Program-made: the position numbers and the translations under genes
Assembly: GCA_945836755.1 (NCBI GenBank)
Contig: CAMAMB010000010.1
Location: 1-56,137, forward strand
Direction: 5' to 3'
DNA length: 56,137 bases
Source of the DNA: an uncultured Bacteroidales bacterium
Lineage (GTDB): Bacteria > Bacteroidota > Bacteroidia > Bacteroidales > Bacteroidaceae
Shown here: positions 1 through 51,793 of the stretch, piece by piece
How the letters are laid out: the number at the start of each line of letters is the position of its first letter
Numbering within the stretch: position 1 is the stretch's first letter
The notes under the pieces: model-generated
What the model was told of the DNA's origin: nothing
Database searches by the model: none
The model's input: only the letters and a program-made list of their open reading frames with translations

Positions 1-63
1 GGATGCTTCCAGTTTTAACGGGGATGCTTCCAGTTTTAACGGGGATGCTTCCAGTCGTGGCGG
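1..63. repeat. 21-bp tandem repeat, 3 copies, cut by window edge
   Basis: Three consecutive 21-bp units start at 1, 22 and 43. Each begins GGATGCTTCCAG. The first two are identical and the third diverges in its second half. The array may continue upstream of the window. It lies downstream of the cysS stop, on the far side of a hairpin. It is one of several spacer arrays here with a 21-22 bp period. Confidence 0.85.
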
Positions 64-87
64 GGAGCCATGGTCGCTTACGCATGC

Positions 88-161
88 AGGCCAACGCCCC
101 TCTGTCGGCGGTCGGCGGCTTCGCTGGAAGCGGCCGGGGCGGCGCAGGGGGGCGTTGGCCT
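88..161 (-). terminator. Long hairpin downstream of cysS, probable terminator
   Basis: AGGCCAACGCCCC at 88-100 is perfectly complementary to 149-161 (13 bp), with a 48-nt GC-rich loop. It starts about 50 bp past the cysS stop on the minus strand, so it probably ends that transcript. There is no T-tract, which is common for hairpins in this window. Confidence 0.5.
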
Positions 162-212
162 GTAGGTGTGTCGGGGGGCGGCGAGGGATGGCGGAGGGTC
201 GGTGACGGGGCG

Positions 213-1706
213 TTACTTGGCGAGTTTCCAGGTAGCTCCGTCCTTGGTGTCCTTCACCTCGAAGCCTATGCGGGCCAGCTCGTCGCGTATGCGGTCGCTG
301 GTGGCCCAGTCTTTCTCTTGCTTGGCCTTGGCACGGATGGAGAGGAGCAGGTCGACGGCCTGGCTGAAGGCTTCCTCGCGTTGGGCGTTGCCGCCTTCGG
401 CCTCGTTCAGCAGCCCCAGTATGTCGTAGGCCCAGGTGTGCATGACGCGCTTGAGGGCTTCGAGGCCCTCAGCGGTGATGGTGGTCTGCTTGTCGGCCAG
501 CTGGTTGATGGTGCGTGTGGCATCGAAGAGGTGGCTGATGACGATGGGCGAGTTGAAGTCGTCGCTCATGGCCTCGTGGCAGCGCTCGTCGAGCGCTTCG
601 GCCCAGTCGGTGTCAAGGGCCGCCTGCTGCCGGGGCTCTATGCGGTCGAGCTGGGCAAGGGCGTCCATGAGGCGGTCGTAGCCCTTCTTCGAGGCTTGCA
701 GGGCCTCGTTGGAGAAGTCGACGGTGGAGCGGTAGTGGGCCTGCATGATGAAGAAGCGGATGGTCATGGGCGAGTAAGCCTGCTCCAGGAGCGGATGGCT
801 GCCGGTAAAGAACTGGTCGAGGGTAATGAAGTTGTTGTAACTCTTGCCCATCTTCTTGCCGGCGATGGTAATCATGTTGTTGTGCATCCAGTACTTCACC
901 ATCTCTTCACCCTGTGCAGCCACGGCCTGGGCTATCTCACACTCGTGGTGGGGGAAGACGAGGTCCATGCCACCGCCGTGTATGTCGAAGCGGGCGCCGA
1001 GATACTTGCGCCCCATGGCGGTACACTCGCAGTGCCAGCCGGGGAAGCCGTCGCTCCAAGGCGAGGGCCAGCGCATGATGTGCTCGGGCTGAGCCTTCTT
1101 CCAGAGGGCGAAGTCTACCTGGTGCTTCTTCTCGCCCACGCCGTCAAGCTCGCGCGAGGCGTCGTGCACGTCGTCGAGGTTGCGCCCGGAGAGCACCCCG
1201 TAGCGATGGTCTTCGTTGTACTTGACCACGTCGAAGTAGACAGAGCCGTTCGACTCGTAGGCGTAGCCATGGTCCATGATCTGCTTCACCAGCTCTTCCT
1301 GTTCGATGATGTGGCCCGTGGCGTGGGGCTCGATGCTGGGGGGCAGCACGCCGAGGGCGTCCATGGCCTTGTTGAAGCGGTTGGTGTAATGCTGGGCCAC
1401 TTCCATGGGCTCGAGCTGCTCGAGGCGGGCCTTCTTGGCTATCTTGTCTTCGCCGTCGTCGGCGTCGTGCTCCAAGTGACCCACGTCGGTGATGTTGCGT
1501 ACATAGCGCACCTTGTAGCCCAGATGCTTCAAGTAGCGGTAGACGAGGTCGAAGGTGATGGCGGGACGGGCGTGACCTAAATGGGCATCACCGTAGACGG
1601 TGGGACCACAGACGTACATGCCCACATGACCCTCGGTGAGGGGACGGAACAGCTCCTTCGTGCGGCTGCGTGTATTGTAGAGGTAGAGATTACGTGGTTT
1701 GGTCAT
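213..1706 (-). CDS. cysS: Cysteine--tRNA ligase
   Basis: This cytoplasmic class I aminoacyl-tRNA synthetase charges tRNA-Cys with cysteine. The product is 497 aa, close to the usual bacterial CysRS length. Zinc ligands are visible at C33 (YVCGPTVY), C226 (GWHCECT) and H253/C256 (PHHECE). The HIGH-type motif is AHLGH (41-45) and the second ATP motif is KMGKS (285-289). The start at 1706 ([11 protein letters not shown]) was chosen because a TACTTTTG promoter element lies only 25 bp upstream. The frame stays open further upstream, but that stretch passes through the promoter and does not look like the family. The gene is monocistronic and divergent from the lipoprotein gene at 2067. Confidence 0.96.
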
Positions 1707-1730
1707 AACGTGAATAGATGGTTTGGCAGG

Positions 1731-1738
1731 CAAAAGTA
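1731..1738 (-). promoter_or_regulatory. Promoter -7 element of cysS
   Basis: On the minus strand this reads TACTTTTG, matching the Bacteroidetes TAnnTTTG consensus. It sits 25 bp before the chosen cysS start. I see no TTTG at the -33 spacing. Confidence 0.6.
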
Positions 1739-1939
1739 ACAAATATTTTCGGCTCATGGGCCGCCGCCCGCCGTGATATTGTCGGGCAAGGCGGCAAAGC
1801 CTTTTCCCGCGCCGGCCGCGCCTTCCCGGTTTTTCATTCATTAACCTCCTGAAGCAGCCATAGCTCCCTGATTTTTGGCTGAATAAGAAAGAATGATGGT
1901 TAATTTTTACAGATTTTCTTGGCCATATCAAAAATTAAT
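1739..1939. other. Spacer between divergent cysS and lipoprotein genes
   Basis: This is part of a 360-bp gene-free region (1707-2066). It holds the two divergent promoters and a short AAGGC/GCCTT inverted repeat near 1788-1804. I see no gene, RNA gene or tandem repeat in it. The roughly 110-nt leader of the lipoprotein gene (about 1954-2066) has a small GAGGA/TCCTC hairpin near 1981-1993. Confidence 0.4.
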
Positions 1940-1947
1940 TACCTTTG
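1919..1947 (+). promoter_or_regulatory. Promoter of the lipoprotein-DUF5723 pair
   Basis: TTG at 1919-1921 and TACCTTTG at 1940-1947 are 18 bp apart, a good match to the Bacteroidetes two-part promoter. Transcription from here would give a leader of about 110 nt before the ATG at 2067. Confidence 0.65.
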
Positions 1948-2066
1948 CAACCTATAAAGACTTTACTGCGTCGCAGGGTGAGAGGATGTCCTCGCCGACG
2001 CCCGGCCTCCCGCAGAGAGAACATTCTCAGGCTTACTCCTTATCTCCAACCTAATACCATCTTGCT

Positions 2067-4001
2067 ATGGCACATTTATCGTACAAGCAACTTCTATCAG
2101 TGGGAACGCTTGCTCTCGCTGCCACAGTCGTGACGACGGGCTGCGTCGACAGCTCCTACGACTTCTCTGAAGACATCGACTTGACCATGGGCTTGGGCTC
2201 CGACGGGCTAACCTTCCCCATGGGCGATGTGGAACAAATCCTCCTCGGAGACATCCTTGAAATAGACGAGAACAACGTGGAGCTCGACGCCACCAACATG
2301 TACTACCTCGTGGAAGACGGCTCCACCACCTTCAAGGTGAAGGTAAACAACGTCAACGCCAGCTTCAACAACCCCACCGTGCGTAACTTTAACCCCGCAC
2401 TCACCTTCGACCAGGTAGTGAGCCAGTCGGGCCTGCCCGCCTCCACCACCTCCGTGCCCATCTCGCGCAACCGCAACTTCACGGCCACGGCCGACGGTAA
2501 GAACTACATCTCCATGAACGTCACCGACGTCGACCCCGCCATCATCTGGGTTGACAATGTAGACCTCGTCGAGCAGAACATCTATCTCAAACTGCAGCCA
2601 TCGAGCAGCGCTTCGGCCAACGACCTCTCCCGCTACTTCAACGTGACCACCATCAAGGCCGGGTCGCAGGTACACTTCCCCAAGCTCATCGCCATCAGCC
2701 AGTTAGCCGACCCCGGCAAGTGGGAAATCACCGCCGACGCCACCGGAACCATGCTCAAGGCCAAGACCGACATCACCGTGCCGGCTAACGGCATTCTCGC
2801 CTCCTTCAAGCTTAACCGCGCCAACCTCAAGAAGGCACCCGTGCCCGACGGCAACAAGGCCACCAAGAAATTTGAATTCACCGACGCAGAGACAGAAGTA
2901 ACCTTCGCGGGCAGCGCCATAATGACCTGCACCAAATCCTGCACCATGAACCGAGGCCAATCGGCCGACTTCGAGCTCTCCATCAAGGTGGGAAGCACCA
3001 ATGCAGGTGAAAAGACTCCCGTCACCGTCACCAACGCCACGGGCCGGTTCAACCCTGAAATCAACGTAGACAACCCCGACCCCATCGCCATCGGCAACGA
3101 CCTCCCCGACTTCCTGCAAGACGACGAGGTGCGTGTAGGCGTCAGCAACCCCACCATACGCTTCAACGTAGACATGACAAGCGTGCCCGCCGACGTCCAA
3201 ATGTCGGCCACCCTGCAAGGCATCAAGAACGAACAGCCTCTGAAGACCGTCGTCATACCCGGACAGACCGACGGCACACAGCGCAGCTACACCGTCATCA
3301 ACAAGGAGACCTCCAACTGGGTATACTTCTACCAGAGCGGAAGCCCCTACGACCCCGCTCCCGAGGCTGACGGAGTAGTCAACCCCATCAACGTACAGGT
3401 GGACAACATCTCCGACCTCGTCGAAAAGATACCCGAGACCATCGAAGTCAACCTGCAGTCCATCGCAGGCACCCCGCAGCTCTGTGTGCCCGTCGACCGC
3501 ATCTACACCGTAGAGCTCGGCCGCAACTACACCAGCAGCGTCGACTACAAGGTGTTCGTGCCCTTCATGTTCAACGGCAACGTCACCATCGTCTACACCG
3601 ACGAGTCTGACGAAATGAATGAAGACGTGAAGGACTACGCCGCCGAAGGACTTCACGTGACCGCAGACGCCGAGAACACCATCCCCCTCGACCTTGAGCT
3701 CTCCCTCATACCCTACGACACCGAGGGACAAGAAATACCGGGCATCCACTTCACCACCGCACAAATCCCTGCCGGCACCTACAGCGACAGAGGAAGCACC
3801 CCCATTCAGGCAGCGCTCACCATCGAGGGCACACTCGACAATCCACAGCTACTCAGCAAGCTCGACAAGATCGAATACAAAGTGAAGGCCGTCAGCGGAC
3901 AAGACACCTCCTCCAAAAAGCTCATGTCGACGCAGTACGTACAGCTCAAGAACCTCCGGCTTAAACTGAAAGGCCAAGTCATAGGCGACTTCAACGACTA
4001 A
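2067..4001 (+). CDS. Large beta-rich lipoprotein, function unknown
   Basis: The 644-aa product has a type II signal peptide: hydrophobic 9-22, lipobox VTTGC, lipidated Cys at 26. The mature part is rich in Thr, Val, Asn and Asp with many alternating hydrophobic stretches, which suggests stacked beta domains. No catalytic motif is apparent. An acidic segment directly after the Cys (DSSYDFSEDIDL) may act as a linker or surface-export signal. It is followed after 106 bp by a DUF5723 outer-membrane protein in the same direction, so the two may form an envelope pair. Similar lipoproteins next to DUF5723 genes occur in Bacteroidales, but I know of no assigned function. Confidence 0.85.
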   Translation: MAHLSYKQLLSVGTLALAATVVTTGCVDSSYDFSEDIDLTMGLGSDGLTFPMGDVEQILLGDILEIDENNVELDATNMYYLVEDGSTTFKVKVNNVNASFNNPTVRNFNPALTFDQVVSQSGLPASTTSVPISRNRNFTATADGKNYISMNVTDVDPAIIWVDNVDLVEQNIYLKLQPSSSASANDLSRYFNVTTIKAGSQVHFPKLIAISQLADPGKWEITADATGTMLKAKTDITVPANGILASFKLNRANLKKAPVPDGNKATKKFEFTDAETEVTFAGSAIMTCTKSCTMNRGQSADFELSIKVGSTNAGEKTPVTVTNATGRFNPEINVDNPDPIAIGNDLPDFLQDDEVRVGVSNPTIRFNVDMTSVPADVQMSATLQGIKNEQPLKTVVIPGQTDGTQRSYTVINKETSNWVYFYQSGSPYDPAPEADGVVNPINVQVDNISDLVEKIPETIEVNLQSIAGTPQLCVPVDRIYTVELGRNYTSSVDYKVFVPFMFNGNVTIVYTDESDEMNEDVKDYAAEGLHVTADAENTIPLDLELSLIPYDTEGQEIPGIHFTTAQIPAGTYSDRGSTPIQAALTIEGTLDNPQLLSKLDKIEYKVKAVSGQDTSSKKLMSTQYVQLKNLRLKLKGQVIGDFND

Positions 4002-4107
4002 GCCCACACGCTCATAGTCTCACGGAGGGACACACGCCGCATAGCCCACGCTACACGCCGGCCCACACCCTCCCTCAACTAATTACACATTCCAAATAAT
4101 ATCCCCT
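4002..4107 (+). repeat. Short spacer with a 21-bp-spaced repeat
   Basis: ACACGCCG occurs at 4032 and 4053, exactly 21 bp apart, within a C-rich spacer. The end of the spacer (about 4080-4100) is AT-rich, just before the next start codon. No separate promoter is clear, so co-transcription with the lipoprotein gene is likely. Confidence 0.4.
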
Positions 4108-5499
4108 ATGCTTCGCAAAATATCAGCCTGCCTCCTGGCAGCCACACTGGCGCTTCCCGCCGCCGCACAAGAGCTGTACTCCAGCTACTTCATGCAGACC
4201 TCACACCTGCGACACGAAATGAACCCCGCCCTCCTCGACACCGCCTACATGACCATACCCCTCATCGGCGGTAACATCAACATCGGAACTACCGGCAACA
4301 TCGGCGCAGCCAACTTCATCTACAAAATGAAGCCCGGATGGCAAGGATACGGCCGCGGAGGACGCACCATGACCACCTTCATGCACCCCGAAGTCAATGC
4401 AGCCGACTTCCTCGACGACCTCAAAGACAACAACCGTCTCGGCGTATACCTCAAATACAACCTCGCCAGCGTCGCCTTCAAAGGCTTCAAAGGCATGAAC
4501 CTCATAGAGCTCAACCTGCGCTCGGCCACCAACGTCAGCCTGCCCAAAGAACTCTTCGCCTTCATGAAAGAAGCCGGCAACAAGGAAAGCTACGACATCG
4601 AAGACATCGGCATGCGCACGGAGAACTACATGGAGCTCGCACTCGGACATTCCCACAAAATAGGCTCCAAGTGGACCGTGGGCGGAAAGATTAAGTTCCT
4701 CATCGGCGTGGCCTACGCCGACTTCAAGGCCGACAAGCTACACGTCCAGATGCAAGACGACCAGTGGGCCATCACCGGAAAACCACAGCTCTCGGCCGCC
4801 ATTCTCAAGTCAAACTTCACCTACGAAAAAGACGACCCCACCCGCAAGATTGACGGCCTCGACGATGTCTCATTCGGCCTACCCGGCTTCGGTCTGGCCT
4901 TCGACCTCGGAGCCACCTACAAGGTGACCGACGACCTCACCGTCAGCGCTGCCGTCACTGACCTCGGCTTCATCAGCTGGAGCAAAGCCCTGCAAGCCGG
5001 CGCCAAGACCGACTCATGGACCTTCGACGGCTTCGAAAACATCTACGCCGGAGGCACCGACACCGGCAACAACAAACTCGACGACCAGTTTGAAACCATG
5101 GGCGACGACCTCGAAGAAATGCTTCCCCTCTACAACAAGGGAAAGAAGACCGACACACGTGCCCTTGCAGCCACCATCAACATGGGCGCCGAGTACACCC
5201 TACCCGTCTACCGCAAGATGCGCTTCGGCTTCCTCTACACCAGCCGCCTGGCCGGCAAGTACTCCTTCCACCAGGGAATGCTCACCGCCAACTACCGCCC
5301 CGCTAAGTGGTTTGAAGTAGCACTCAACGGAGCTGTCAACTCCACAGGCTGCACAGCCGGTATGGTCATGGACTTCCACGCCAAGCACTTCAACTTCTTC
5401 ATCGGTGCCGACCGCTTCATGGGCAAGCTCTCCAAGCAGGGCATACCCCTCCACCGCCTCAACTCCAGCTTCACCATGGGCATGAGCATACCTCTCTAA
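4108..5499 (+). CDS. DUF5723 family outer-membrane beta-barrel protein
   Basis: The 463-aa protein has a Sec signal peptide (MLRKISACLLAATLALPAAAQ). Cleavage would leave or precede a Gln, the Bacteroidetes pattern for proteins later converted to N-terminal pyroglutamate. The mature part has alternating aromatic and hydrophobic strands and ends in a short hydrophobic strand (FTMGMSIPL), as expected of an outer-membrane barrel. The early FMQTSHLRHEMNPAL segment matches DUF5723 proteins, whose function is unknown. It lies downstream of the lipoprotein gene and is closed by a strong hairpin terminator at 5569-5620. Confidence 0.85.
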   Translation: MLRKISACLLAATLALPAAAQELYSSYFMQTSHLRHEMNPALLDTAYMTIPLIGGNINIGTTGNIGAANFIYKMKPGWQGYGRGGRTMTTFMHPEVNAADFLDDLKDNNRLGVYLKYNLASVAFKGFKGMNLIELNLRSATNVSLPKELFAFMKEAGNKESYDIEDIGMRTENYMELALGHSHKIGSKWTVGGKIKFLIGVAYADFKADKLHVQMQDDQWAITGKPQLSAAILKSNFTYEKDDPTRKIDGLDDVSFGLPGFGLAFDLGATYKVTDDLTVSAAVTDLGFISWSKALQAGAKTDSWTFDGFENIYAGGTDTGNNKLDDQFETMGDDLEEMLPLYNKGKKTDTRALAATINMGAEYTLPVYRKMRFGFLYTSRLAGKYSFHQGMLTANYRPAKWFEVALNGAVNSTGCTAGMVMDFHAKHFNFFIGADRFMGKLSKQGIPLHRLNSSFTMGMSIPL

Positions 5500-5568
5500 A
5501 CATCCGGACGCCACCGGCCACGCCGCGCCCCACAGGCTGACGAAGCCGGTGAACTCCCCCTCCCATTC

Positions 5569-5620
5569 ATCCCCCCGCACGCCTCCCGGCCCCACTGCCG
5601 GAAAAGATGTGCGGGGGGAT
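5569..5620 (+). terminator. Terminator hairpin of the DUF5723 gene
   Basis: ATCCCCCCGCAC at 5569-5580 pairs perfectly with 5609-5620 (12 bp). The loop contains a smaller CCGG/CCGG hairpin. It lies 70 bp past the DUF5723 stop. Confidence 0.75.
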
Positions 5621-5633
5621 TGTCATAAACGGC

Positions 5634-5692
5634 ATGTACATGTAGAAAATCTTAGATGTACATGTAGGTCGAACGGCATGTACATGTAGTTG
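5634..5692 (+). repeat. 22-bp palindromic repeat array, locus 1 (ATGTACAT family)
   Basis: ATGTACATGTAG starts at 5634, 5656 and 5678, exactly 22 bp apart, separated by 10-bp linkers (AAAATCTTAG, GTCGAACGGC). The core ATGTACAT is its own reverse complement. The array sits between two terminator hairpins in a convergent spacer. The unit with linker GTCGAACGGC recurs exactly at the fourth locus (35228). Confidence 0.85.
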
Positions 5693-5763
5693 TTCTGGCC
5701 TCTGCGGTCTCTCGGCATGCAGCCCTTCGGGCGAAGAGGTGAGGCCGGAGGCTGCCTGCGCGC

Positions 5764-5807
5764 GACGGGCCTTATAGCTGAGCTTAGCTGCTGCTATAAG
5801 GCCCGTC
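5764..5807 (-). terminator. Terminator hairpin of the glyS-FKBP operon
   Basis: GACGGGCCTTATAGC (5764-5778) pairs perfectly with 5793-5807, a 15-bp stem with a 14-nt loop. It lies 48 bp past the FKBP stop on the minus strand and could work in both directions. Confidence 0.8.
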
Positions 5808-5855
5808 GGTGGGTGGGTCGGTGTGGGGGAGGCAGTGGGCTGCCCGGCCTGTGTC

Positions 5856-6515
5856 TCAACGCCAGTATGCCTTGAGCTCTGTATCGAAGATGAGGGTGGA
5901 GTAGGCCGGCAGTACGCCTGAGCTTCCGCCGTCGTAGCCCAGCTGTCGGGGTATGTAGACTAACCAGCGGTCGCCCACGTGCATGTGTTGGAGCACGGTG
6001 GTGTAGCCTTCGACCATGTTGCTGACCATAAACCGTGTGGGGGTGGCCAATGTTTCGTTAAACACATAGTCGTCAGACTCGTAGAGGCCGCTGTGGTCGA
6101 ACACTCGTCCCACTTTCCCGCCCACGCCGTCGTCGAAGCTGTAGTTGTCGGTGGGCATGACGTGTCCCCGGTAGTTGACCTTCACGGAGTCAGTGAAGAG
6201 GGGGCAGCCCGGTCCGGTGCCTTGCTTCTTGACTTTGACGATGATGGAGTCGGTGAGCAGGGCGTAGGAGGGCATTTTGGCGTAGCTGATGAACAGGCGC
6301 CAGGGTGTGTGGCTCTGCCAGTCGTCGCCATACTCTGCCTGTGCCTGAGCGATGGCCTCACGTGCGGTGGCCATGGTCTCGGCGAAGAAGGCGTCGTTGC
6401 GGTCTTTCCAATTGTCGGAGAAGTCGTCCTTCGGTTCGTCCTCGAACTTGTCTTTGCATCCCGTCAGCGTGAGGGTGAGACAGAGCAGGGCCATGATGTA
6501 TGCAATGGGCTTCAT
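5856..6515 (-). CDS. FKBP-type peptidyl-prolyl isomerase lipoprotein
   Basis: The 219-aa product has a lipoprotein signal peptide (lipobox TLTGC, Cys at 20), so it should be membrane-anchored in the periplasm. After an acidic linker and a helical segment (about 40-70), the C-terminal half carries FKBP features: VKVNYRGHV, a VFDHS-like strand, VSNMVEGYTTVLQHMHVGDRWLVYIPRQLGYD, and a final STLIFDTELKAY strand. It would catalyse proline isomerisation during folding of exported proteins. It follows glyS by 53 bp on the same strand without its own visible promoter, so it is probably in the glyS operon. Confidence 0.9.
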   Translation of the reverse strand: MKPIAYIMALLCLTLTLTGCKDKFEDEPKDDFSDNWKDRNDAFFAETMATAREAIAQAQAEYGDDWQSHTPWRLFISYAKMPSYALLTDSIIVKVKKQGTGPGCPLFTDSVKVNYRGHVMPTDNYSFDDGVGGKVGRVFDHSGLYESDDYVFNETLATPTRFMVSNMVEGYTTVLQHMHVGDRWLVYIPRQLGYDGGSSGVLPAYSTLIFDTELKAYWR

Positions 6516-6568
6516 GGGGGGTATGTGCGTCAGTTTAGTGGGGTGGATGGGGGCTTGTGGGGGCGGTG

Positions 6569-8110
6569 TTACTGCAACTTTTTGAGCAGGGCGGTGAGGC
6601 TGACTTTCTCTTCGAGCATGGGTATGAGCTGGTCAATGGCCACGCGCGACTGTTCCATGGTGTCTCTGTCGCGCAGGGTGACGCATCCGTCGGTCAGTGT
6701 GTCGTGGTCGACGGTGATGCAGTAGGGTGTGCCTATGGCGTCCTGGCGGCGGTAGCGCTTGCCGATGGAGTCTTTTTCCTCGTACTTGCAGTTGAAGTGG
6801 AACTTGAGGCGGTTGAGTATCTCGTGTGCCTTTTCGGGCAGTCCGTCTTTCTTGACGAGGGGGAGTATGGCGAGCTTGACGGGGGCGAGGGCAGCGGGCA
6901 GCTTGAGCACTACGCGTGTGTCGCCTCCTTCGAGCTGCTCTTCGGTATAGCTCTTGCACATGACGCTGAGGAACATGCGGTCGACGCCGATGGATGTCTC
7001 AATGACGTAGGGGGTGTAGCTCTCGTTGCATTCGGGGTCGAAGTATTCGATTTTGCGTCCTGAGAACTTGGCGTGCTGTGAGAGGTCGAAGTTGGTGCGT
7101 GAGTGTATGCCTTCTACCTCCTTGAAGCCGAAGGGCATCTTGAACTCGATGTCGGTGGCAGCGTTGGCGTAGTGGGCGAGCTTCTCGTGGTCGTGGTAGC
7201 GATAGGCGTCGTCGCCGAAGCCTAAGGCTTTGTGCCAGCGCAGGCGTGTCTCCTTCCACTGCTTGAACCATTCGAGCTCGGTGCCGGGCTTGACGAAGAA
7301 CTGCATCTCCATCTGCTCGAACTCGCGCATGCGGAAGATGAACTGGCGGGCCACTATCTCGTTGCGGAAGGCCTTGCCGATTTGTGCGATGCCGAAGGGC
7401 ACCTTCATGCGGCCGGTCTTCTGTACGTTGAGGTAGTTGACGAAGATGCCCTGCGCCGTCTCGGGGCGCAGGTAGATGGTGGAGGCTCCGTCGGCGGTGG
7501 AGCCCACTTCAGTCTTGAACATGAGGTTGAACTGGCGCACGTCGGTCCAGTTGCGTGTGCCGGAGATGGGGCAGACTATCTCTTCGTCGAGGATGATTTG
7601 CTTGAGCTCGTTGAGGTCCATGGCGTTCATGGCGTCGGCATACCGCTGGTGGAGGGCGTCGCGCTTTGCCTGCTGCTCCATGACGCGGGCGTTGGTGGAG
7701 CGGAACTGTGCCTCGTCGAAGCTGTCGCCGAAGCGTTTGCGGGCCTTGGCCACTTCCTTGTCAATCTTCTCTTCATACTTGGCTATCTGCTCCTCTATGA
7801 GCACGTCGGCGCGGTAGCGCTTCTTGGAGTCGCGGTTGTCGATGAGGGGGTCGTTGAATGCGTCGACGTGGCCCGAAGCCTTCCAGACGGTGGGGTGCAT
7901 GAAGATGGCGGCGTCGATGCCTACGATGTTATCGTGGAGGAGTACCATGGACTGCCACCAGTATTGCTTGATGTTGTTTTTCAGCTCGACGCCGTTCTGT
8001 CCGTAGTCGTAGACAGCTCCGAGGCCGTCGTATATGTCGCTTGAGGGGAATACAAAGCCGTATTCCTTGCAGTGGGATACTATCTTCTTGAAAACGTCTT
8101 CTTGTGCCAT
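6569..8110 (-). CDS. glyS: Glycine--tRNA ligase (homodimeric, class II)
   Basis: The enzyme charges tRNA-Gly with glycine in the cytoplasm. The 513-aa product is the single-chain alpha2 type, not the two-subunit form. Recognisable parts are the N-terminal RRGFVFP-like segment (GFVFPSSDIYDGLGAVYDYG), motif 2 around FRNEIVARQFIFRMREFEQME, motif 3 (GVDRMFLSVMC), and a C-terminal anticodon-binding domain (LAPVKLAILPL onward). The start at 8110 (MAQEDVFKK) lies 31 bp downstream of a TACCTTTG element. The in-frame upstream extension crosses that element and was rejected. The symbol follows common Bacteroidetes usage; glyQS would also be acceptable. Confidence 0.95.
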   Translation of the reverse strand: MAQEDVFKKIVSHCKEYGFVFPSSDIYDGLGAVYDYGQNGVELKNNIKQYWWQSMVLLHDNIVGIDAAIFMHPTVWKASGHVDAFNDPLIDNRDSKKRYRADVLIEEQIAKYEEKIDKEVAKARKRFGDSFDEAQFRSTNARVMEQQAKRDALHQRYADAMNAMDLNELKQIILDEEIVCPISGTRNWTDVRQFNLMFKTEVGSTADGASTIYLRPETAQGIFVNYLNVQKTGRMKVPFGIAQIGKAFRNEIVARQFIFRMREFEQMEMQFFVKPGTELEWFKQWKETRLRWHKALGFGDDAYRYHDHEKLAHYANAATDIEFKMPFGFKEVEGIHSRTNFDLSQHAKFSGRKIEYFDPECNESYTPYVIETSIGVDRMFLSVMCKSYTEEQLEGGDTRVVLKLPAALAPVKLAILPLVKKDGLPEKAHEILNRLKFHFNCKYEEKDSIGKRYRRQDAIGTPYCITVDHDTLTDGCVTLRDRDTMEQSRVAIDQLIPMLEEKVSLTALLKKLQ

Positions 8111-8140
8111 GATATATGATGGGTATAAATTGGTTGGGCG

Positions 8141-8148
8141 CAAAGGTA
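8141..8148 (-). promoter_or_regulatory. Promoter -7 element of glyS
   Basis: On the minus strand this reads TACCTTTG followed by C, matching TAnnTTTG. It lies 31 bp upstream of the glyS start, in the 70-bp gap between the maturase stop and glyS. Confidence 0.6.
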
Positions 8149-8180
8149 GCAAAAATATCTGACGGAAGGCCCTTTAGCCG

Positions 8181-9416
8181 TCAATCAAACGCGTGGGGGT
8201 CTCGCTGTAGGAGGCTGACGATGGCAGCGGGCGGCCGCTGGTGGAGGAGTTCCTGCTTCATCCAGTCCATGTATGGGGCTACGTGGCTGAAGAATTGTCG
8301 ATAGCCTTTGCAGAGGTAGTTGAGGCCCGGCTCGCCTTCGGGGGTGTGGAGGAAGCGGTTTTTGGGACACTCGCCGTTGCAGGCGAAGAGCCAGGGACAC
8401 TGGCGGCAACGGTTGGGGAGGGTGGTGCGCTTGGCCTGCCCGAAGGCTCGCTGTCGCTCGCTGTACATCATCTCGACGAACGACTGCTCCCGCAGGTTGC
8501 CGAGGCGGTATTCGGGGAAGACGAAGTGGTCGCAACTGTAGACGTCGCCGTTCCACTCGAGGGCCGCGGCGTGGCCGCAGGTGGGGGCGAGGGTGCAGAT
8601 GCCCGGCGGCTGCCCCATCCAGTTGGCGAGGGTGGAGTCGAAGAGCTGGACGAAGCACTGGCCTACGTCGTGGTGTACCCATTCGTCGAAGAGGGTGCAG
8701 AGAAACGTGCCCCATGCCTCGGGGGTGACGCTCATGGGCAGCATGCCGCCTGCGCCGGCCTCGTCGACCGCGGCCAGCCGTCGGCCGTCGGCATGGGGCT
8801 GAAGGCGCTCGACGATGGGGGTGAACTGGAGATAGTGGCAGTCGATGCTGCGAAAGAAGCGGTAGAAGCCGAGGGGGTCGCCGACGTTGAGGTCGTTGAC
8901 CACGGCCAGCGCGTTCCACTCCACGCCGTGGCGGCGGAGCATCTCGATACCCTTCATGACCTGGACGAAGGAGGGCCGGCCGCTGCGGGTGCGGCGGTAG
9001 TGGTCGTGGATGGGCTGTGGCCCGTCGATGCTGACGCCCACAAGCCAGCCTTCGTCGCGGAAGAAGCGACACCACTCGTCGGTCAGCAGGGTGCCGTTGG
9101 TCTGTATGCAGTTGTCGATGACCCTCCCTGCGGCATACTTGCGTTGCAGCGCCACGGCGCGGCGGTAGAAGCTGAGCGGACGCATAAGCGTCTCGCCTCC
9201 GTGCCAGGTGAAGAGTACAGAGGGGGTGGTCTGTGCCTCTATGTAGGAGCGCACAAAGCGTTCGAGCATGGCATCGTCCATGACTTGGGCCTCGCCTTGG
9301 CCGTAGAGCTTGCTCTTTTCAAGGTAGTAACAATAGGCGCAAGAGAGGTTGCAACGCGACCCGGCCGACTTGGCCAGCACGTAGAAGGGCGACGAGAAGG
9401 GAGAGATGGTGGACAC
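8181..9416 (-). CDS. Radical SAM/SPASM enzyme, anaerobic sulfatase-maturase family
   Basis: The 411-aa product has the radical SAM cluster motif CxxxCxxC (C22, C26, C29 in RCNLSCAYCYY), then WHGGE and the SPASM cysteines (GICTLAPTCGH, YSCDH, CRQCPWLFACNGECP, YLCKGY). This organisation is that of anaerobic sulfatase-maturating enzymes, which oxidise a Cys or Ser of a sulfatase to formylglycine. I chose the GTG start at 9416 because the only good promoter element lies at 9458-9465. ATG codons further upstream in the frame would fall before transcription begins. No sulfatase is nearby, so the substrate is unproven; another SPASM peptide-modifying role is possible. Confidence 0.88.
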   Translation of the reverse strand: MSTISPFSSPFYVLAKSAGSRCNLSCAYCYYLEKSKLYGQGEAQVMDDAMLERFVRSYIEAQTTPSVLFTWHGGETLMRPLSFYRRAVALQRKYAAGRVIDNCIQTNGTLLTDEWCRFFRDEGWLVGVSIDGPQPIHDHYRRTRSGRPSFVQVMKGIEMLRRHGVEWNALAVVNDLNVGDPLGFYRFFRSIDCHYLQFTPIVERLQPHADGRRLAAVDEAGAGGMLPMSVTPEAWGTFLCTLFDEWVHHDVGQCFVQLFDSTLANWMGQPPGICTLAPTCGHAAALEWNGDVYSCDHFVFPEYRLGNLREQSFVEMMYSERQRAFGQAKRTTLPNRCRQCPWLFACNGECPKNRFLHTPEGEPGLNYLCKGYRQFFSHVAPYMDWMKQELLHQRPPAAIVSLLQRDPHAFD

Positions 9417-9457
9417 GGCAGGGGGGAGGCTGAGGGGTGTGACTGAGATTATGCGGA

Positions 9458-9496
9458 CAAAGGTAAGGCTTTTTCTAAGATAAATCCTTACCTTCG
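9458..9496. promoter_or_regulatory. Divergent promoter palindrome, maturase/sirtuin
   Basis: TACCTTTG reads leftward at 9465-9458 for the maturase. TACCTTCG reads rightward at 9489-9496 for the sirtuin. The two lie in an inverted repeat (AAGGTAAGG and CCTTACCTT) separated by 17 bp, so the promoters are mirror images and close enough to compete or share a regulator. Confidence 0.6.
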
Positions 9497-9573
9497 CCAT
9501 GACGAGGGGGAGCGTCGGCCACGTCAGTTGACGCAGCGCCGTCTCTCTCCACCCTAACCCTAACGTACAGACC

Positions 9574-10278
9574 ATGCAGAAATTAGTTATTCTGACCGGC
9601 GCCGGCATGAGCGCAGAGAGCGGCTTCAGCACCTTCCGCGACAGCGACGGCCTCTGGGAGCAATACCCCGTGGAGCAGGTGGCCACGCCCGAGGGCTGGC
9701 AGGCTGACCCTGACCTTGTGACCGACTTCTACAACGGCCTCAGGCGGCAGCTGGTCGGCGCTCAGCCTAATGCTGGCCACCTGGCCCTGGCCGAGATGGA
9801 GCGCGACTACGAGGTGACCATCATCACACAGAATGTGGACGACCTGCACGAGCGGGCCGGCAGCAGCCGCGTCATCCACCTGCACGGCGAGCTCATGAAG
9901 GTGACTTCAAGCCTCGCCCCCAATGACACGCGCTACATCCGCACTCTGCCGCCCCACCATCTCGAAGTGGCTCACGGCGAACGCGCCGGCGACGGCTCGT
10001 TACTGCGTCCGTGGATAGTATGGTTCGGCGAGGCTGTGCCCAACCTCGAAATGGCGGCGGCCGAGGTGGAACGTGCAGACATCTTCGTCATCATTGGCTC
10101 TTCGCTCAATGTCTACCCTGCGGCAGGCCTCATCCGCTTCGCGCCGCCGTCGGCGAAGTGCTATCTGATTGACCCTAAGGAGGTGAACGTGCACAGCCAC
10201 CACTCGATAGAGATCATCAGGGACGTGGCCTCACGCGGCGTCGAGGAACTGCGGCGGAGGCTGAACGACCGGGCATAA
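9574..10278 (+). CDS. cobB: NAD-dependent protein deacylase (sirtuin)
   Basis: The 234-aa protein is a compact bacterial sirtuin that removes acyl groups from lysine using NAD+. Visible motifs are GAGMSAESG (9-17, NAD binding), TFRDSDGLW, TQNVDDLH (85-92), and HGEL with catalytic H104. GSSLNVYPAAGL is the second NAD-binding element. The usual zinc-binding Cys pairs are absent: the region after HGEL runs MKVTSSLAPNDTRYI without cysteines. This resembles other Bacteroidetes sirtuins. It is transcribed divergently from the radical SAM gene and followed by a 21-bp repeat array. Confidence 0.93.
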   Translation: MQKLVILTGAGMSAESGFSTFRDSDGLWEQYPVEQVATPEGWQADPDLVTDFYNGLRRQLVGAQPNAGHLALAEMERDYEVTIITQNVDDLHERAGSSRVIHLHGELMKVTSSLAPNDTRYIRTLPPHHLEVAHGERAGDGSLLRPWIVWFGEAVPNLEMAAAEVERADIFVIIGSSLNVYPAAGLIRFAPPSAKCYLIDPKEVNVHSHHSIEIIRDVASRGVEELRRRLNDRA

Positions 10279-10332
10279 ACGGCCGGCCGGCTGTGGGGGC
10301 GCCCTGTGCGGCAGCCCCTTGGCGCCGCTGCC

Positions 10333-10627
10333 ATGCGGCCACACCGGCTCATCATGCGGCCACACTGCTTTGCCATGCGGCCACACTGCTTTGCCATGCA
10401 GCCACGCCGGCCCATCATGCGGCCACACTGCTTTGCCATGCAGCCACGCCGGCTCATCATACAGCCACACTGCTTTGCCATGCAGCCACACTGCTTTGCC
10501 ATGCAGCCACACTGCTTTGCCATGCGGCCACACTGCTTTGCCATGCGGCCACGCCGGCTCATCATGCGGCCACACTGCTTTGCCATGCAGCCACACCGGC
10601 TCATCATGCGGCCACGCCACCCCGGTC
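10333..10627 (+). repeat. 21-bp tandem array, 14 units, two unit types
   Basis: Units begin ATGCGGCCAC or ATGCAGCCAC at 10333, 10354, 10375, 10396, 10417, 10438, 10459, 10480, 10501, 10522, 10543, 10564, 10585 and 10606, always 21 bp apart. Two variants of the second half occur: A ends ACTGCTTTGCC and B ends near CCGGCTCATC. Their order is B A A B A B A A A A B A B, then a degenerate last unit. Because 21 is a multiple of 3, several frames stay open through the array on both strands. Nothing suggests it is translated. It follows the sirtuin stop and precedes the kbl terminator. Confidence 0.93.
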
Positions 10628-10662
10628 ATGGCGGCCCGTTCACGGCCTTGTATCCTACGACA

Positions 10663-10695
10663 AAGCCCCTGCTTTCGCACTGAAAGCAGGGGCTT
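10663..10695. terminator. Bidirectional terminator, sirtuin/kbl
   Basis: AAGCCCCTGCTTTC (10663-10676) pairs perfectly over 14 bp with 10682-10695 around a 5-nt loop. It lies between convergent genes, 24 bp past the kbl stop. Confidence 0.85.
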
Positions 10696-10719
10696 CTGTA
10701 TGTCGGGGTGAAGCGGGCG

Positions 10720-11907: not shown

Positions 11908-11996
11908 AGTGAGTAATGATTGTGTGTGGCCTGCGCGTTGCCTCGTGCCGAACATGAAGCGGGCGGCTATGCGGCAGACCTTTGTTAGAATTGGTG

Positions 11997-12004
11997 CAAA
12001 GGAA
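11997..12004 (-). promoter_or_regulatory. Weak -7-like element upstream of kbl
   Basis: On the minus strand this reads TTCCTTTG followed by C, one base off TAnnTTTG, and is 90 bp upstream of the kbl start. The TTTG further upstream is at the wrong distance (12 bp), so the call is weak. Confidence 0.3.
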
Positions 12005-12044
12005 ATGATTTTTTGGCAAATACCTGTCGGCTTGCTTCTAAATA

Positions 12045-12384: not shown

Positions 12385-12461
12385 CATGTTCCCATTCAAG
12401 CCGTTGCGCTGGCACGGCCACGGGGACAGCCTTCCTATCCACCTACATAGCACCTACAGTC

Positions 12462-18878: not shown

Positions 18879-18919
18879 GCCCGCCACGGACCCCCCACCC
18901 GCGGCGGAGGTTTGTCTGC

Positions 18920-19041
18920 ATGTACATCCAATATTTCCTACATGTACATGCAGTTTTTTCTATATGTACATGCCGTTGTTCCTACATGTACATGCCATTT
19001 TTTCTATATGTACATGCCGTTGTTCCCACATGTACATCCAA
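18920..19041 (-). repeat. 22-bp palindromic repeat array, locus 2 (ATGTACAT family)
   Basis: ATGTACAT starts at 18920, 18942, 18964, 18986, 19008 and 19030, always 22 bp apart. Read on the minus strand, the units are ATGTACATGTAG or ATGTACATATAG followed by A-rich linkers such as GAACAACGGC, so the array is inverted relative to loci 1 and 4. It begins 42 bp after the trkH stop. Confidence 0.88.
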
Positions 19042-19091
19042 GATTTCCATACACTCATGAAGCTGTGTCTCCATGCCTTGAAGCCGTTCTC

Positions 19092-19241
19092 AGAAGCCTT
19101 CGCGTGAGTGAAATCCGTCCCAATGTCAGGTTGCATTGGGCCGAATGCAACCTTGCATCCGCCCGAAAGCAAGGTGACATCCGCCCCAATGTTACTCGCG
19201 TAAAGGCTTCCGGGAATGGCAAAACGCCTTGCCGACACGGC
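19092..19241 (+). repeat. Structured 150-bp intergenic element, copy 1
   Basis: It aligns without gaps to 46557-46706. The terminal inverted repeats are 19092-19114 and 19189-19211 (imperfect). The inner hairpin AGGTTGCAT (19128-19136) with ATGCAACCT (19145-19153) is perfect, and ACCTTGC/GCAAGGT is an alternative partner. The segment CAATGTCAGG through GTTACTC (about 76 nt) differs from the other copy at only two sites. The element also has an internal period of about 22 bp (TCCGTCCCAATG, TTGGGCCGAATG, TCCGCCCGAAAG, TCCGCCCCAATG). Confidence 0.8.
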
Positions 19242-19529: not shown

Positions 19530-19638
19530 GCATGACTGCCGACGATGGGGAAAATGCCCGCCGACCATGAGGGCATGCCCGCCAACGGCGGGCGCACGAC
19601 GCAATGGCGTCGGCTGATGGGAAGAAACGGGCGAGGGC

Positions 19639-22377: not shown

Positions 22378-22457
22378 GCTATTTTTCTCGGGCTACATGG
22401 CCAAAGCCCTCCAAGCCTTCCCCACACGCCGAGGAAGCGCACGGCCACAGCGCCCCC

Positions 22458-22616
22458 GCACCCGGCCACCCTCTAAAACGCACCAAGCCTCCACGCCACC
22501 GCACCTCCATCCCCCCTGCAACGCACCCGGCCACCCTCTAAAACGCACCAAGCCTCCCCGCCACCTCACCTCCATCCCCCTGCAACGCACCCGGCCTCCC
22601 CTGCAACGCACACAGA
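22458..22616 (+). repeat. 21/22-bp tandem array with 64-65 bp higher-order unit
   Basis: Units starting GCACC (or TCACC, GCACA) lie at 22458, 22480, 22501, 22523, 22545, 22566, 22587 and 22608, with steps of 22, 21, 22, 22, 21, 21 and 21 bp. Three successive units (beginning GCACCCGG, GCACCAAG, GCACCTCC) form a 64-65 bp block that repeats almost exactly. The spacer lies between the divergent yfhO-like gene and rpsO. Confidence 0.85.
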
Positions 22617-23114: not shown

Positions 23115-23156
23115 CTTACGCCCTTAGCTCATGCCCTTACGCTCTTAGCTCGAAAC
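23115..23156 (+). repeat. 21-bp repeat, two copies
   Basis: CTTACGCCCTTAGCTC at 23115 recurs as CTTACGCTCTTAGCTC at 23136, exactly 21 bp later, in the spacer between rpsO and the AEC transporter. Only two copies are present. Confidence 0.6.
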
Positions 23157-23216
23157 CTTTCTGTCCTCGGCTCCGGGCTTTTCTCCTTTTTCTCCCACCT
23201 TTCCATTCTTCACCAC

Positions 23217-25389: not shown

Positions 25390-25436
25390 CCACACGCCTG
25401 CCCGGAGCAGCCCCTCAGCCACGCACGCCCCACGGC

Positions 25437-25534
25437 ATGTACATCCCGTTCGAACTACATGTACATCTAGTTTTTTCTACATGTACATCCCGTTCGAACT
25501 ACATGTACATGTAGGTTTTCGTTCATGCACATCT
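25437..25534 (-). repeat. 22-bp palindromic repeat array, locus 3 (ATGTACAT family)
   Basis: ATGTACAT starts at 25437, 25459, 25481 and 25503, with a degenerate ATGCACAT at 25525, all 22 bp apart. On the minus strand the units read ATGTACATGTAG plus linkers AAAAAACTAG or TTCGAACGGG. The unit with AAAAAACTAG is identical to one at locus 4 on the plus strand. The array begins 48 bp after the rmuC stop. Confidence 0.87.
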
Positions 25535-29014: not shown

Positions 29015-29056
29015 CCACACAGCCACACTACCACGCCACACAGCCACAACGCGCCC
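29015..29056 (+). repeat. 21-bp repeat, two copies, in hisD-hisC spacer
   Basis: CCACACAGCCACA occurs at 29015 and 29036, exactly 21 bp apart, within an operon spacer of 75 bp. Confidence 0.6.
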
Positions 29057-35227: not shown

Positions 35228-35335
35228 ATGTACATGTAGGTCGAACGGCATGTACATGTAGAAAAAACTAGATGTACATGTAGGAAAAACGGGATGTACA
35301 TGTAGGAAAAACGGGATGTACATGTAGGTCGAAGA
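35228..35335 (+). repeat. 22-bp palindromic repeat array, locus 4 (ATGTACAT family)
   Basis: ATGTACATGTAG starts at 35228, 35250, 35272, 35294 and 35316, always 22 bp apart, with linkers GTCGAACGGC, AAAAAACTAG, GAAAAACGGG (twice) and GTCGAAGAG. Exact units are shared with locus 1 (same strand) and locus 3 (opposite strand). Confidence 0.9.
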
Positions 35336-46439: not shown

Positions 46440-46740
46440 GGGCCACCGTCGCGCCGCCTCCGGGCCGTGGAGAAGAAGCTCCGGGCCCTCACACAAAGGC
46501 TTCACGCTCTCACGCTGAGGCTTCGCACCGTTGTGCCAAGGCTTCGCGCCGTTTCCGGAAGCCTCCGCGCGAGTAAAATCTGCCCCAATGTCAGGTGGCA
46601 TTGGGCCGAATGCTACCTTGCATCCGCCCGAAAGCAAGGTGACATCCGCCCCAATGTTACTCTCGCGGAGGCTTCCAAGCACGGCCGGACGCCTTGCCGA
46701 CACGGCCCGGAGCTTCTACTCCACGGCGCGAAGCCTTTGC
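46440..46740. repeat. Degenerate 21/22-bp periodic region, large imperfect inverted repeat
   Basis: CCGGGCC- and GGCTTC-type units recur at about 20-22 bp steps through most of the 580-bp gap 46324-46903. The outer arms 46464-46487 (GCCGTGGAGAAGAAGC plus TCCGGGCC) and 46704-46727 are inverted copies with one mismatch in 24. They enclose the 150-bp element copy 2. The whole could extrude a large cruciform or form a long RNA hairpin. I see no gene here. Confidence 0.65.
46557..46706 (+). repeat. Structured 150-bp intergenic element, copy 2
   Basis: It aligns without gaps with 19092-19241. The terminal inverted repeats 46557-46579 (GGAAGCCTCCGCG start) and 46654-46676 match at 21 of 23 positions. 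The inner hairpin AGGTGGCAT (46593-46601) with ATGCTACCT (46610-46618) keeps pairing as RNA through a G-U, where copy 1 has a T-A pair. CCCAATG/CATTGGG (46584-46605) is an alternative stem. Both copies end with ACGCCTTGCCGACACGGC. Confidence 0.8.
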
Positions 46741-46873
46741 GCCACGGCGACGGCCCTTCCGCCACCTCGCTCATAGCCTCCGCAAGCGGCTGTGCGGCGC
46801 CCCCACGACGCCTCTGCGGGCCGCGACGAGCAGGAATGCGGGCCAAACCGACCGCCGTTTGCCGCAAAAGAGG

Positions 46874-50097: not shown

Positions 50098-50131
50098 CCC
50101 CACACCCACGCCGACGCCGACCGGCCCCGCC

Positions 50132-50244
50132 CACACCGCGTCACTCACTCTCTTCACACCTCACTCCTCTCCTTTCACACCGCATCACTCTCCCTCCACA
50201 CCGCATCACTCTCCCTCCACACCGCGCTCCTTTCTCTTCACACC
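50132..50244 (+). repeat. 21-bp tandem array, five units
   Basis: CACACC recurs at 50155, 50176, 50197, 50218 and 50239, every 21 bp, with a first, less regular copy at 50132 (23 bp). The two middle units (CACACCGCATCACTCTCCCT plus C) are identical. The array fills most of the 179-bp spacer before the EnvC-like gene. Confidence 0.88.
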
Positions 50245-50276
50245 ACCAAGCCGCACGCTACCACCACCCACCCTGC

Positions 50277-51674
50277 ATGAAACGCCTACTCCACATACTC
50301 TGCATACTCTGGCTCACACTCGCCCCGGCCGGCGCACAGACCAACAAGCAGATACGCTCCCTGCAAAAGCAGCAGAGCGCCCTCAAATCGCAAATCGCCG
50401 ACCAGGAGAAGATGCTCCGGTCTACCAAGAAAGACGTCAACTCGCAGCTTGCCAACCTCAGAGTTATCTCGTCGCAGATTGACAACCAGCAGAAATACGT
50501 CAAAGGCATACACGCAGAGCTCACAGAGCTGGCCTCAGACATCAGCGGCCTCGAAAAGCAGCTCAGCCTGCTCGAACATGACCTCGAAGACTGCAAGCGA
50601 AAGTACCGCACCGCCATCAACTACATGTTCAAGAACCGCTTAAAGTTCTCACAGTGGCGCTTCATACTATCAGCCCGCAACTTCAGGCAGATGTACCGCC
50701 GCCTGCGCTACGTCTCAGACTTCTCAAAATACCAGCGACAGCAAGGCCTCATCATTAGAAAAAAAGAAGAAGAGGTGGACGCCAAACGCAAAGAGCTGCT
50801 CGGCGTCAAGCAAGAGAAGGACAGACTCTACGCCGAAGGGCAGGCCGAAACCCAAAAACTCGAAGGACAGAAGAAGGAACGGCAAGACATGGTCGACGAG
50901 CTCAACAAAAAACAGAAGGAGCTACAAAAGACCCTCGCCAAGCAACGCAAAAAATACGACCAGCTCAACGCACGCATCGACCAGCTCATACAGCAGGAAA
51001 TCATAGCCGCCGAGAAACGACGCAAACAGCAAGAGGCCGCCCGCAAGGCACGCGAGAAAAAACAACGGGAGGCCGCAGAAGCCGAGCGACGACGCAAACA
51101 ACAGGCAGCACGCTCCAAAAACAACGGAAAAACCACAGCCTCAAAATCAAAAACCAAGACAGCAACCTCTAAAACAAACCGCACACGCTCGCGCACCAGC
51201 AGCCGAGACGAAGAATACCACGCACCCAACCCGCGCATAGCCGAAAACACCGACTACGCCCTCACCGCAAGCTTCGCAGCCGCACGAGGACGACTGCCCA
51301 TGCCCATCACCGGACCCTACACCATCACTACACACTTCGGCACCTACAACGTCTCAGGACTCAAAGGCGTGCAGCTCGACAGCAAAGGCATCAACATCAC
51401 CGGACACCCCGGCGCACAGGCCCGCTGCGTATACAAAGGAGAAGTCACAGCCATCTTCCCCTACGCCGGAATGTACAACGTCATCGTCAGACACGGCAGC
51501 TACATGTCTGTATACTGCAACCTCGCATCCATCACCGTCACACGAGGACAGCAACTCAGCCAAAGACAGACCATAGGCAACGTGGCCACAGACGCAAGCG
51601 GCAACTGCACCCTCCACTTCCAGCTACGCAAAGAGACAGCACGGCTCAACCCCGAAGGATGGCTCGCAAGGTAA
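50277..51674 (+). CDS. EnvC-like murein hydrolase activator (degenerate M23/LytM)
   Basis: The 465-aa product has a Sec signal peptide (APAGAQ, mature start at or near Gln). A long coiled coil follows (about 22-270: LQKQQSALKSQIADQEK and similar), then a basic low-complexity linker (about 265-315) and a LytM fold (about 345-465). The metal site looks incomplete: the HxH motif reads TLHFQL, so its first His is replaced by Thr, and the His expected near the SKGINI segment is missing. As in E. coli EnvC, the domain probably activates an amidase during cell separation instead of cutting murein itself. Confidence 0.9.
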   Translation: MKRLLHILCILWLTLAPAGAQTNKQIRSLQKQQSALKSQIADQEKMLRSTKKDVNSQLANLRVISSQIDNQQKYVKGIHAELTELASDISGLEKQLSLLEHDLEDCKRKYRTAINYMFKNRLKFSQWRFILSARNFRQMYRRLRYVSDFSKYQRQQGLIIRKKEEEVDAKRKELLGVKQEKDRLYAEGQAETQKLEGQKKERQDMVDELNKKQKELQKTLAKQRKKYDQLNARIDQLIQQEIIAAEKRRKQQEAARKAREKKQREAAEAERRRKQQAARSKNNGKTTASKSKTKTATSKTNRTRSRTSSRDEEYHAPNPRIAENTDYALTASFAAARGRLPMPITGPYTITTHFGTYNVSGLKGVQLDSKGINITGHPGAQARCVYKGEVTAIFPYAGMYNVIVRHGSYMSVYCNLASITVTRGQQLSQRQTIGNVATDASGNCTLHFQLRKETARLNPEGWLAR

Positions 51675-51687
51675 ACTCACACACCAC

Positions 51688-51793
51688 ACACCCAACCCTC
51701 CACGCCATTTCCTCCTCCTTAGATACCACACACCCAACCCTCCACGCCATTTCCTCCTCCTTAGATACCATACACCCAACCCTCCACGCCCCT
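51688..51793 (+). repeat. 42-bp (2 x 21) tandem repeat before miaB
   Basis: ACACCCAACCCTCCACGCC occurs at 51688, 51730 and 51772, exactly 42 bp apart. The first two units are identical along their length and contain TTCCTCCTCCTTAGATACC. The third is truncated. The 42-bp spacing is twice the 21-bp period seen elsewhere, and the identity suggests recent duplication. Confidence 0.9.

Follow-up and report, generated by a model that had tools for sequence, protein, structure and literature searches.

Introduction

Intergenic repeats of bacteria are mostly classed by their sequence. The nearest known kind to those we describe here is BrickBuilt, a minisatellite miniature inverted-repeat transposable element (MITE), which excerpts from its description place between genes at 19 loci, with 23-nt units, dyads and long predicted stem-loops, and give as confined to Porphyromonas gingivalis and P. 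gulae (PMC4596501). According to the same excerpts, most copies have a leader or a tail, some have IS5-like ends, and repeats of 41, 23 and 22 nt have been described from P. gingivalis strain W83 (PMC4596501). BrickBuilt is also reported, in the part of the literature drawn on here, to carry promoter elements. Our repeats come from the 56,137-bp contig CAMAMB010000010.1 of an uncultured Bacteroidales bacterium (assembly GCA_945836755.1), the whole of which we call the window, and they are tandem arrays in the spacers between genes. What they have in common is a length of 21–22 bp, found in 23 species including the source genome, and sequence-based searches therefore miss it.

Like BrickBuilt as excerpted, the arrays consist of intergenic tandem units of about two helical turns, often with dyad symmetry. 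BrickBuilt is one family with a 23-nt unit, whereas the units here are 21–22 bp, fall into 14 unlinked groups in a single genome, and have other sequences in sister species. We did not find a counterpart of the leader or tail and the IS5-like terminal repeats of the excerpts: arrays of the family with a ATGTACAT core (family A) have unique flanks without common ends, as judged by eye, and families B–D have other inverted arms.

Repetitive extragenic palindromes (REPs) and the REP-associated tyrosine transposases (RAYTs) offer a second comparison. Excerpts on REPs describe palindromes of 20–40 bp that carry an unpaired tag, GTAG or CGTC, and whose partners lie at no fixed distance (PMC3733652). 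The likeness is in short palindromes that occupy many spacers, with several families per genome, some of them species-specific, in dimers and clusters, and in convergent and unidirectional spacers (PMC3733652, same excerpts). In contrast to the REPs so described, spacing here is fixed at 21–22 bp. The GTAG of family A lies in the paired palindrome CTACATGTACATGTAG; the other families were looked at by eye only.

Sites set at whole helical turns, as in our arrays, are known from plasmids. Iterons are spaced near 22 bp. The F-plasmid centromere, as excerpted, has twelve 43-bp repeats (about four turns) with 16-bp inverted repeats, and is palindromic as well (PMC6238139). These systems are single loci with a known protein, whereas our sample suggests some hundreds of arrays with many cores. 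Clustered regularly interspaced short palindromic repeats (CRISPR) likewise join a constant palindromic part to a variable part of constant length. However, our units are far too short (22 bp against a repeat of 24–48 bp), the linkers recur (34 kinds in 74), and the arrays are dispersed over the chromosome.

Across 7006 prokaryotic genomes surveyed for periodic repeats, heptamers were reported as the most abundant intergenically, and the passages drawn on here mention no 21–22 (PMC6344855). Among titles and abstracts, mostly outside subscription journals, there was no report of a common 21–22-bp period in bacterial spacers. The new feature is the length common to unlinked groups and to species.

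Spacer repeats in the source genome

The window is contig C10 of the source genome (G000; 2.25 Mb in 94 contigs, 85% complete), and we sampled this genome with the window plus 20 stretches of 20 kb, one each from 20 other contigs. Genes were called with codon-statistics scripts (hexamers first, codons later), and the spacer borders rest on these calls. Arrays were detected with Tandem Repeats Finder (TRF) in 225 spacers and autocorrelation was run on 264 (window plus 400 kb), with dinucleotide shuffles of the spacers as controls. The scripts excluded arrays containing N, and spacers under 40, 60 or 100 bp depending on the script.

In these 225 spacers, TRF assigned 21 arrays to period 21 and 34 to period 22, one each to periods 20 and 24, two to period 42 and none to periods 17–19 or 23. 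Ten shuffled sets summed gave one 21-bp and one 22-bp array. The 55 arrays of 21 or 22 bp, in 456 kb, occupy 44 of the 225 spacers. Autocorrelation bears out the excess over other periods that a sequence-only reading of the window had set as its test: self-matches per 10 kb of spacer came to 90 at lag 21 and 215 at lag 22, against about 1 in shuffles, 8.8 at lag 20 and 1.4–3.1 at lags 19 and 23–25. Lags 42, 44, 63, 66, 84 and 88, which are multiples, were likewise strong.

The same reading expected the peak to be missing from genes, which is so at 22 bp (0.7 matches per 10 kb, and no arrays) and not at 21 bp, where there is a codon ripple of 11.7 per 10 kb and there are six arrays in 371 kb, which we read as seven-residue protein repeats. 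Two other sources of the period were tried and rejected. Chance or base composition is ruled out by the shuffles, and coding repeats do not account for the period with a small 21-bp excess in genes (those six arrays) and none at 22. A check of open frames in 44 of the 21-bp arrays found one without an open frame and eight with all six open; 22 is not a multiple of 3. By eye, one array (L027:11866) could be coding.

The sequence-only reading also suggested that helical phase is being measured. The two-turn spacing agrees with this, but one-turn periods (10–11) are not enriched and three-turn periods (32–33) came to four arrays, so that any ruler is specifically one of about two turns. The arrays point only weakly to helical phase as such, with one- and three-turn periods not clearly enriched. 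Longer periods (at least 23 bp, 22 arrays of relatives) do cluster at multiples of about 10.5, which is not independent evidence because most of them are multiples of 21. The four arrays of 32–33 bp lie in three species (L092:17510 in G008, L071:9624 and L185:3642 in G004, and L182:2820 in G064) and are too few to judge.

The period in related genomes

We took stretches from 15 species of the same genus and from 20 genomes of other families in the order. The order-wide comparison of arrays took in 14 genomes of each kind, and the TRF count in relatives covered 608 spacers from 13 same-genus genomes and 58 loci around miaB and rmuC. We dropped G033 (1.8 kb) and six contigs of the order under 7 kb. 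L056 of the order (7.2 kb; periods 7, 15, 16, 16) was omitted from the order-wide comparison, and G006 from the TRF count and from the dyad-spacing test described below. L188 repeats the 22-bp array of L161 and was removed from the similarity linkage and from the analyses of conserved columns and periods.

The period expected in relatives is there. The 608 spacers hold 36 arrays of 21 bp and 21 of 22 bp (the L161/L188 array being counted twice among the latter), against about 0.2 arrays of either length per shuffled set. Among neighbouring periods, 18 bp was seen five times, 17 bp three times, 19, 23 and 24 bp twice each and 20 bp once. At the 58 loci, intergenic sequence held 13 arrays of 21 bp, six of 22 bp (again with that array counted twice) and one of 20 bp, and none of 16–19 or 23–31 bp. 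The sequence of the unit differs from species to species and the period stays unchanged: similarity linkage of 111 arrays of 21 or 22 bp from 23 species, source genome included, gave 28 groups, three of which occur in more than one species. The longest array of period 23 that we saw, with 19 units (GCGCACCTCACCTATCGCGACGT), lies at L100:9300-9746 in G028.

Arrays are few in other families of the order: within the range 17–24, periods 17, 20 and 23 each turned up twice and periods 21 and 22 once each. In 200 kb of E. coli, we found only two intergenic arrays, of periods 13 and 101, and no spacer array of 21 or 22 bp.

Near-constancy of unit length

From one unit to the next, 199 steps yielded 883 mismatches and only three changes of length, a rarity that is suggestive and not strict because TRF favours arrays that can be aligned and our script slightly favours no shift. 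Orthologous arrays give the same picture. G008 and G020 are about 91% identical in the genes adjoining the arrays, and two orthologous arrays align gap-free over 146 columns, 22 of which are mismatched. In the flanks taken into the comparison there were 33 gap openings, a number inflated in part by the unequal ends of these stretches. In each of these two arrays (L144:2965-3043 with L145, and L180:2638-2706 with L181), the asymmetric 5-nt centre of one core is flipped where it stands (GTGCT against AGCAC) and the register is undisturbed. DNA that forms hairpins is expected to undergo micro-inversions of this kind.

The period statistics of the source genome and its relatives, the rare length changes and the ungapped orthologous arrays together uphold the earlier idea that length is kept while sequence changes. 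A length that barely varies across differing sequences points to the spacing as what is preserved.

Repeat families and unit anatomy

The repeats of the window had been taken as mostly unrelated in sequence. In the source genome at large, single linkage of the 55 sampled arrays gave 14 unlinked groups, one of them of 35 arrays. The idea fails for the window arrays at 5634, 18920, 25437 and 35228, which are one family (A), and for those at 19092 and 46557, which are another (B).

Family A has its ATGTACAT core every 22 bp, often within the perfect palindrome already mentioned. In the sample of the source genome, all 77 intervals of up to 100 bp from one core to the next measure 22, 44 or 66, and the 14-nt linkers take 34 different forms among 74. 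A pattern of two cores matched the whole source genome 196 times forward and 249 times in reverse, with some places matched on both strands. The backwards control of this pattern also matched (150 and 195), because the backwards core itself belongs to the palindrome. The pattern had no exact match in viral_contigs, and thus we saw no phage source, and none in genome_contigs, where records close to the source genome may be missing.

By eye, families B, C and D are dispersed elements whose outer arms are inverted and whose inner units keep a 22-bp register. The outer arms are common to 11 of the 14 matches of family B and not to the other three; we saw four places for C and five for D. Other families of the source genome are GC-rich or C-rich, and the three of these that we folded are unstructured. 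None of the patterns for families A, B and C matched in 60 relatives (A and C searched exactly, B with up to two mismatches). The nearest thing to family A is a 22-bp array in G032 with family A linkers around another core, ATGCGCAT; this combination occurs in two of 58 genomes of the genus, the source genome counted.

Such families are what one would see if the arrays were selfish or neutral minisatellites of the REP or MITE type, similar to BrickBuilt: small palindromes that spread in spacers and grow by slippage without a host function, with a common length inherited from a few ancestral elements or set by the sites of a transposase. We regard this as the main rival explanation and as rather unlikely. 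The features of BrickBuilt given above, including its near species-specificity in the excerpts and the W83 repeats, fit it (PMC4596501), as do the dispersed B, C and D elements with their inverted arms and the restriction of patterns A, B and C to the source genome. Arrays are also densest in the convergent spacers of the source genome, where insertion would presumably harm least, and descent could account for shared linkers in every group but one (A, E and others are linked up in the group of 35). However, the flanks of family A are unique, and the BrickBuilt-type end GAGACCTTTGCA, with up to two mismatches, matched the window once against 4.3 expected, away from the arrays. The REP-associated Y1 transposase (PF01797) is absent from the source genome as far as its 85% completeness goes, and was present in 37 of 61 genomes searched. 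The same starting length would be required many times over, once for each unlinked group in the 23 species, and decay would be expected to leave more than the three length changes counted. A neutral origin similar to that of BrickBuilt explains the spread and the species-specificity and not the common length of unlinked groups.

Unit anatomy was followed in both the source genome and its relatives. In relatives, a typical unit joins a quasi-palindrome of about 14–17 nt to a linker of about 4–8 nt, which sum to 21 or 22; core and linker lengths differ by family and the sum stays constant at 21–22 (both by eye). Units are significantly palindromic (p<=0.05) in 29 of 50 arrays of 22 bp, 13 of 45 of 21 bp and 5 of 33 other arrays of 15–30 bp. 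Conserved columns are clustered (p<=0.05) in 9 of the 26 arrays with at least four units. A spacing of dyads outside arrays, independent of sequence, was looked for and did not appear; the peaks near 10–11, 31–33 and 52–55 bp we take to be the second dyad of each palindromic period.

A period common to unlinked sequences throughout the genus could also be the footprint of a copying or repair process that duplicates 21–22 bp in tandem whatever the sequence. The C-rich unstructured 21-bp arrays have this same period, and identical adjacent units indicate local duplication. Still, genes could tolerate in-frame duplications of 21 bp, yet they hold only the six arrays mentioned above, which look like heptads of residues, and duplication by itself would yield neither the conserved cores that alternate with variable linkers in some arrays nor the cores in both orientations in one register. 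We consider such a process improbable. Should copying be what writes the ruler, this would be a mutation bias of a new kind.

Placement, strand and RNA structure

Among spacers of at least 100 bp in the source genome, an array occurs in 17 of the 28 convergent ones and in 27 of the 130 others (p = 9e-5). The corresponding figures in relatives are 8 of 44 and 33 of 229 (p = 0.5). Divergent spacers of the source genome carry eight arrays in 19 kb. Its tandem spacers have 22 arrays, whose relative position, counted from the upstream stop, averages 0.39 and never exceeds 0.65; in relatives it also averages 0.39, with some arrays at up to 0.93. Arrays in tandem spacers have no clear strand (base) skew relative to genes when compared with all such spacers.

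We folded 17 arrays and elements as RNA, hand-picked and not random. Thirteen were more stable than shuffles (z -3.3 to -13.3), some of them as one long hairpin, and four were unstructured (z -0.61 to 0.89). In some relatives, the units look by eye like a stem followed by a T-run (L093:11498, L099:15744, L151:3072).

These structures, the units with T-runs, the position nearer to the upstream stop and the enrichment of convergent spacers in the source genome would suit arrays of transcribed hairpins that act as terminators or stabilise mRNA, with a unit length set by the RNA helix. The missing strand skew, the four unstructured arrays and the arrays in divergent spacers speak against such RNA elements, as do terminator-like sites, which in window positions 1-40000 show no excess over shuffles and never fall on an array. 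The terminator role that the sequence-only reading had raised is thus not borne out by strand skew or by these 40 kb, and we think RNA elements quite improbable as the explanation.

Proposed rows of sites for a DNA-binding protein

We tentatively favour, at somewhat less than an even chance, a reading at the level of DNA, in which the arrays are rows of dyad sites set two helical turns from one another, to which a dimeric DNA-binding protein would bind. We prefer DNA over RNA because there is no strand bias, because unstructured arrays have the same period, and because the sum of core and linker is constant. Each array would be a row of DNA sites, often dyad-symmetric, with centres 21–22 bp apart, and every site would therefore be on the same face of the helix. 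The likeliest reader would be a dimeric protein, or a few of them, that fills adjacent sites cooperatively, in the manner of Rep on plasmid iterons or of ParB at the F-plasmid repeats. The cores would drift and be replaced between species, and the two-turn ruler would stay, we propose, because neighbouring dimers must touch. New units may arise from tandem duplication, cores and linkers may be reshuffled between arrays by recombination or gene conversion, and palindromic cores may flip in place. The protein, its cooperativity, these ways of spread and a role in spacer architecture or in insulation between genes are all things we infer. Such a protein array explains jointly the ruler, the dyads, the contrast between core and linker and the flips in one register.

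Several findings weigh against this reading. Strong RNA structure in 13 of the 17 hand-picked arrays and, by eye, the terminator-like look of some units of relatives tell against the DNA level. No cognate DNA-binding protein was identified, and the many unlinked core families in one genome are awkward for one sequence-specific protein. The protein array gives no good account of the arrays without a significant dyad, which are the majority (32 of 45 with 21-bp and 21 of 50 with 22-bp units); the contrast between core and linker is likewise not significant in 17 of 26 arrays, and dyads of unrelated sequence outside arrays were not found at a spacing of 21 or 22. The convergent bias is significant in the source genome and not in its relatives. 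The comparison of orthologs covers two arrays only, and concerted evolution or gene conversion between copies could mimic purifying selection there. Finally, the complete genome of a member of the same genus (G004) has no 21- or 22-bp array in 28 kb of spacers, and the system is therefore dispensable. The spacers of this genome (L029, L068-L076) hold 11 arrays of 9 bp, six of 17–18 bp, one of 65 bp and one of 83 bp. G004 may be useful as an array-free comparison genome.

A wider form of the protein reading seems doubtful to us: a two-turn ruler throughout the genus, in which fast-evolving, species-specific dyad cores would line up a co-evolving protein along one helix face at hundreds of spacers, as in chromatin or an insulator, with the spacing conserved and not the sequence. 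If the ruler is indeed read by a protein, it would amount to a widespread architectural or insulating system with fast-evolving target sites.

Arrays of the window

The sequence-only reading gave a repeat spacing, counted by hand, for 14 sites in the window, and TRF and lag counts recover it at 13 of them. The site at 4032 is unsupported, with 9 of 14 matches at lag 21 or 22, which was equalled by 87 of 300 shuffles. No strand is assigned to any of the arrays below.

Family A accounts for four arrays, all with ATGTACAT cores at 22 bp: three cores in a convergent spacer at 5634..5685, six after a TrkH-like gene at 18919..19053, four after an RmuC-like gene at 25436..25533 and five at 35228..35328. 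The two family B elements, at 19090..19213 and 46551..46675, form strong RNA hairpins (z -6.25 and -7.16); in the first we noted the inverted outer arms and quasi-palindromic cores in 22-bp register. Next to the second copy, TRF reports 3.3 units of 21 bp (46680..46748).

A 21-bp array of about 13 units (TGCCATGCGGCCACACTGCTT) lies in a convergent spacer after a Sir2-like gene (10329..10615), and its RNA is no more structured than shuffles (z 0.45 for 10325-10460). Within it, at 10391-10607, are four of the ten matches to a sigma-70-like pattern in window positions 1-20000 (4.7 expected), one pattern per certain units. Shorter arrays of 21 bp are found at 19538..19587 (2.3 units by TRF), 23115..23159 (2.1 units by TRF and lag count) and 29015..29056 (two units at lag 21, with 13 of 14 matches, equalled by 0 of 300 shuffles).

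Three arrays are C-rich. The one at 22457..22611, in a divergent spacer, has a 65-bp unit (about 3 x 21.7) and also 14 of 14 matches at lag 21. The array at 50142..50244 has five units of 21 bp and is unstructured as RNA (z -0.61), as is the one between an EnvC-like gene and miaB at 51683..51790 (z 0.89), which has 2.6 units of 42 bp (2 x 21).

The only Rfam match in the window is a tRNA. The source genome has four SusC/RagA genes above the curated cut-off, which fits Bacteroidota (of 14 controls, only a Bacteroides passes).

At 1..55, the window holds 2.6 units of a 21-bp array (GGATGCTTCCAGTTTTAACGG, family E), with linker letters that are by eye in common with family A, and the contig starts inside this array. 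Contigs C3, C5, C24, C25, C30, C31, C33, C36 and C58 of the source genome also start inside 21- or 22-bp arrays, and C3 and C5 end inside them as well. These repeats therefore probably break the assemblies of such genomes.

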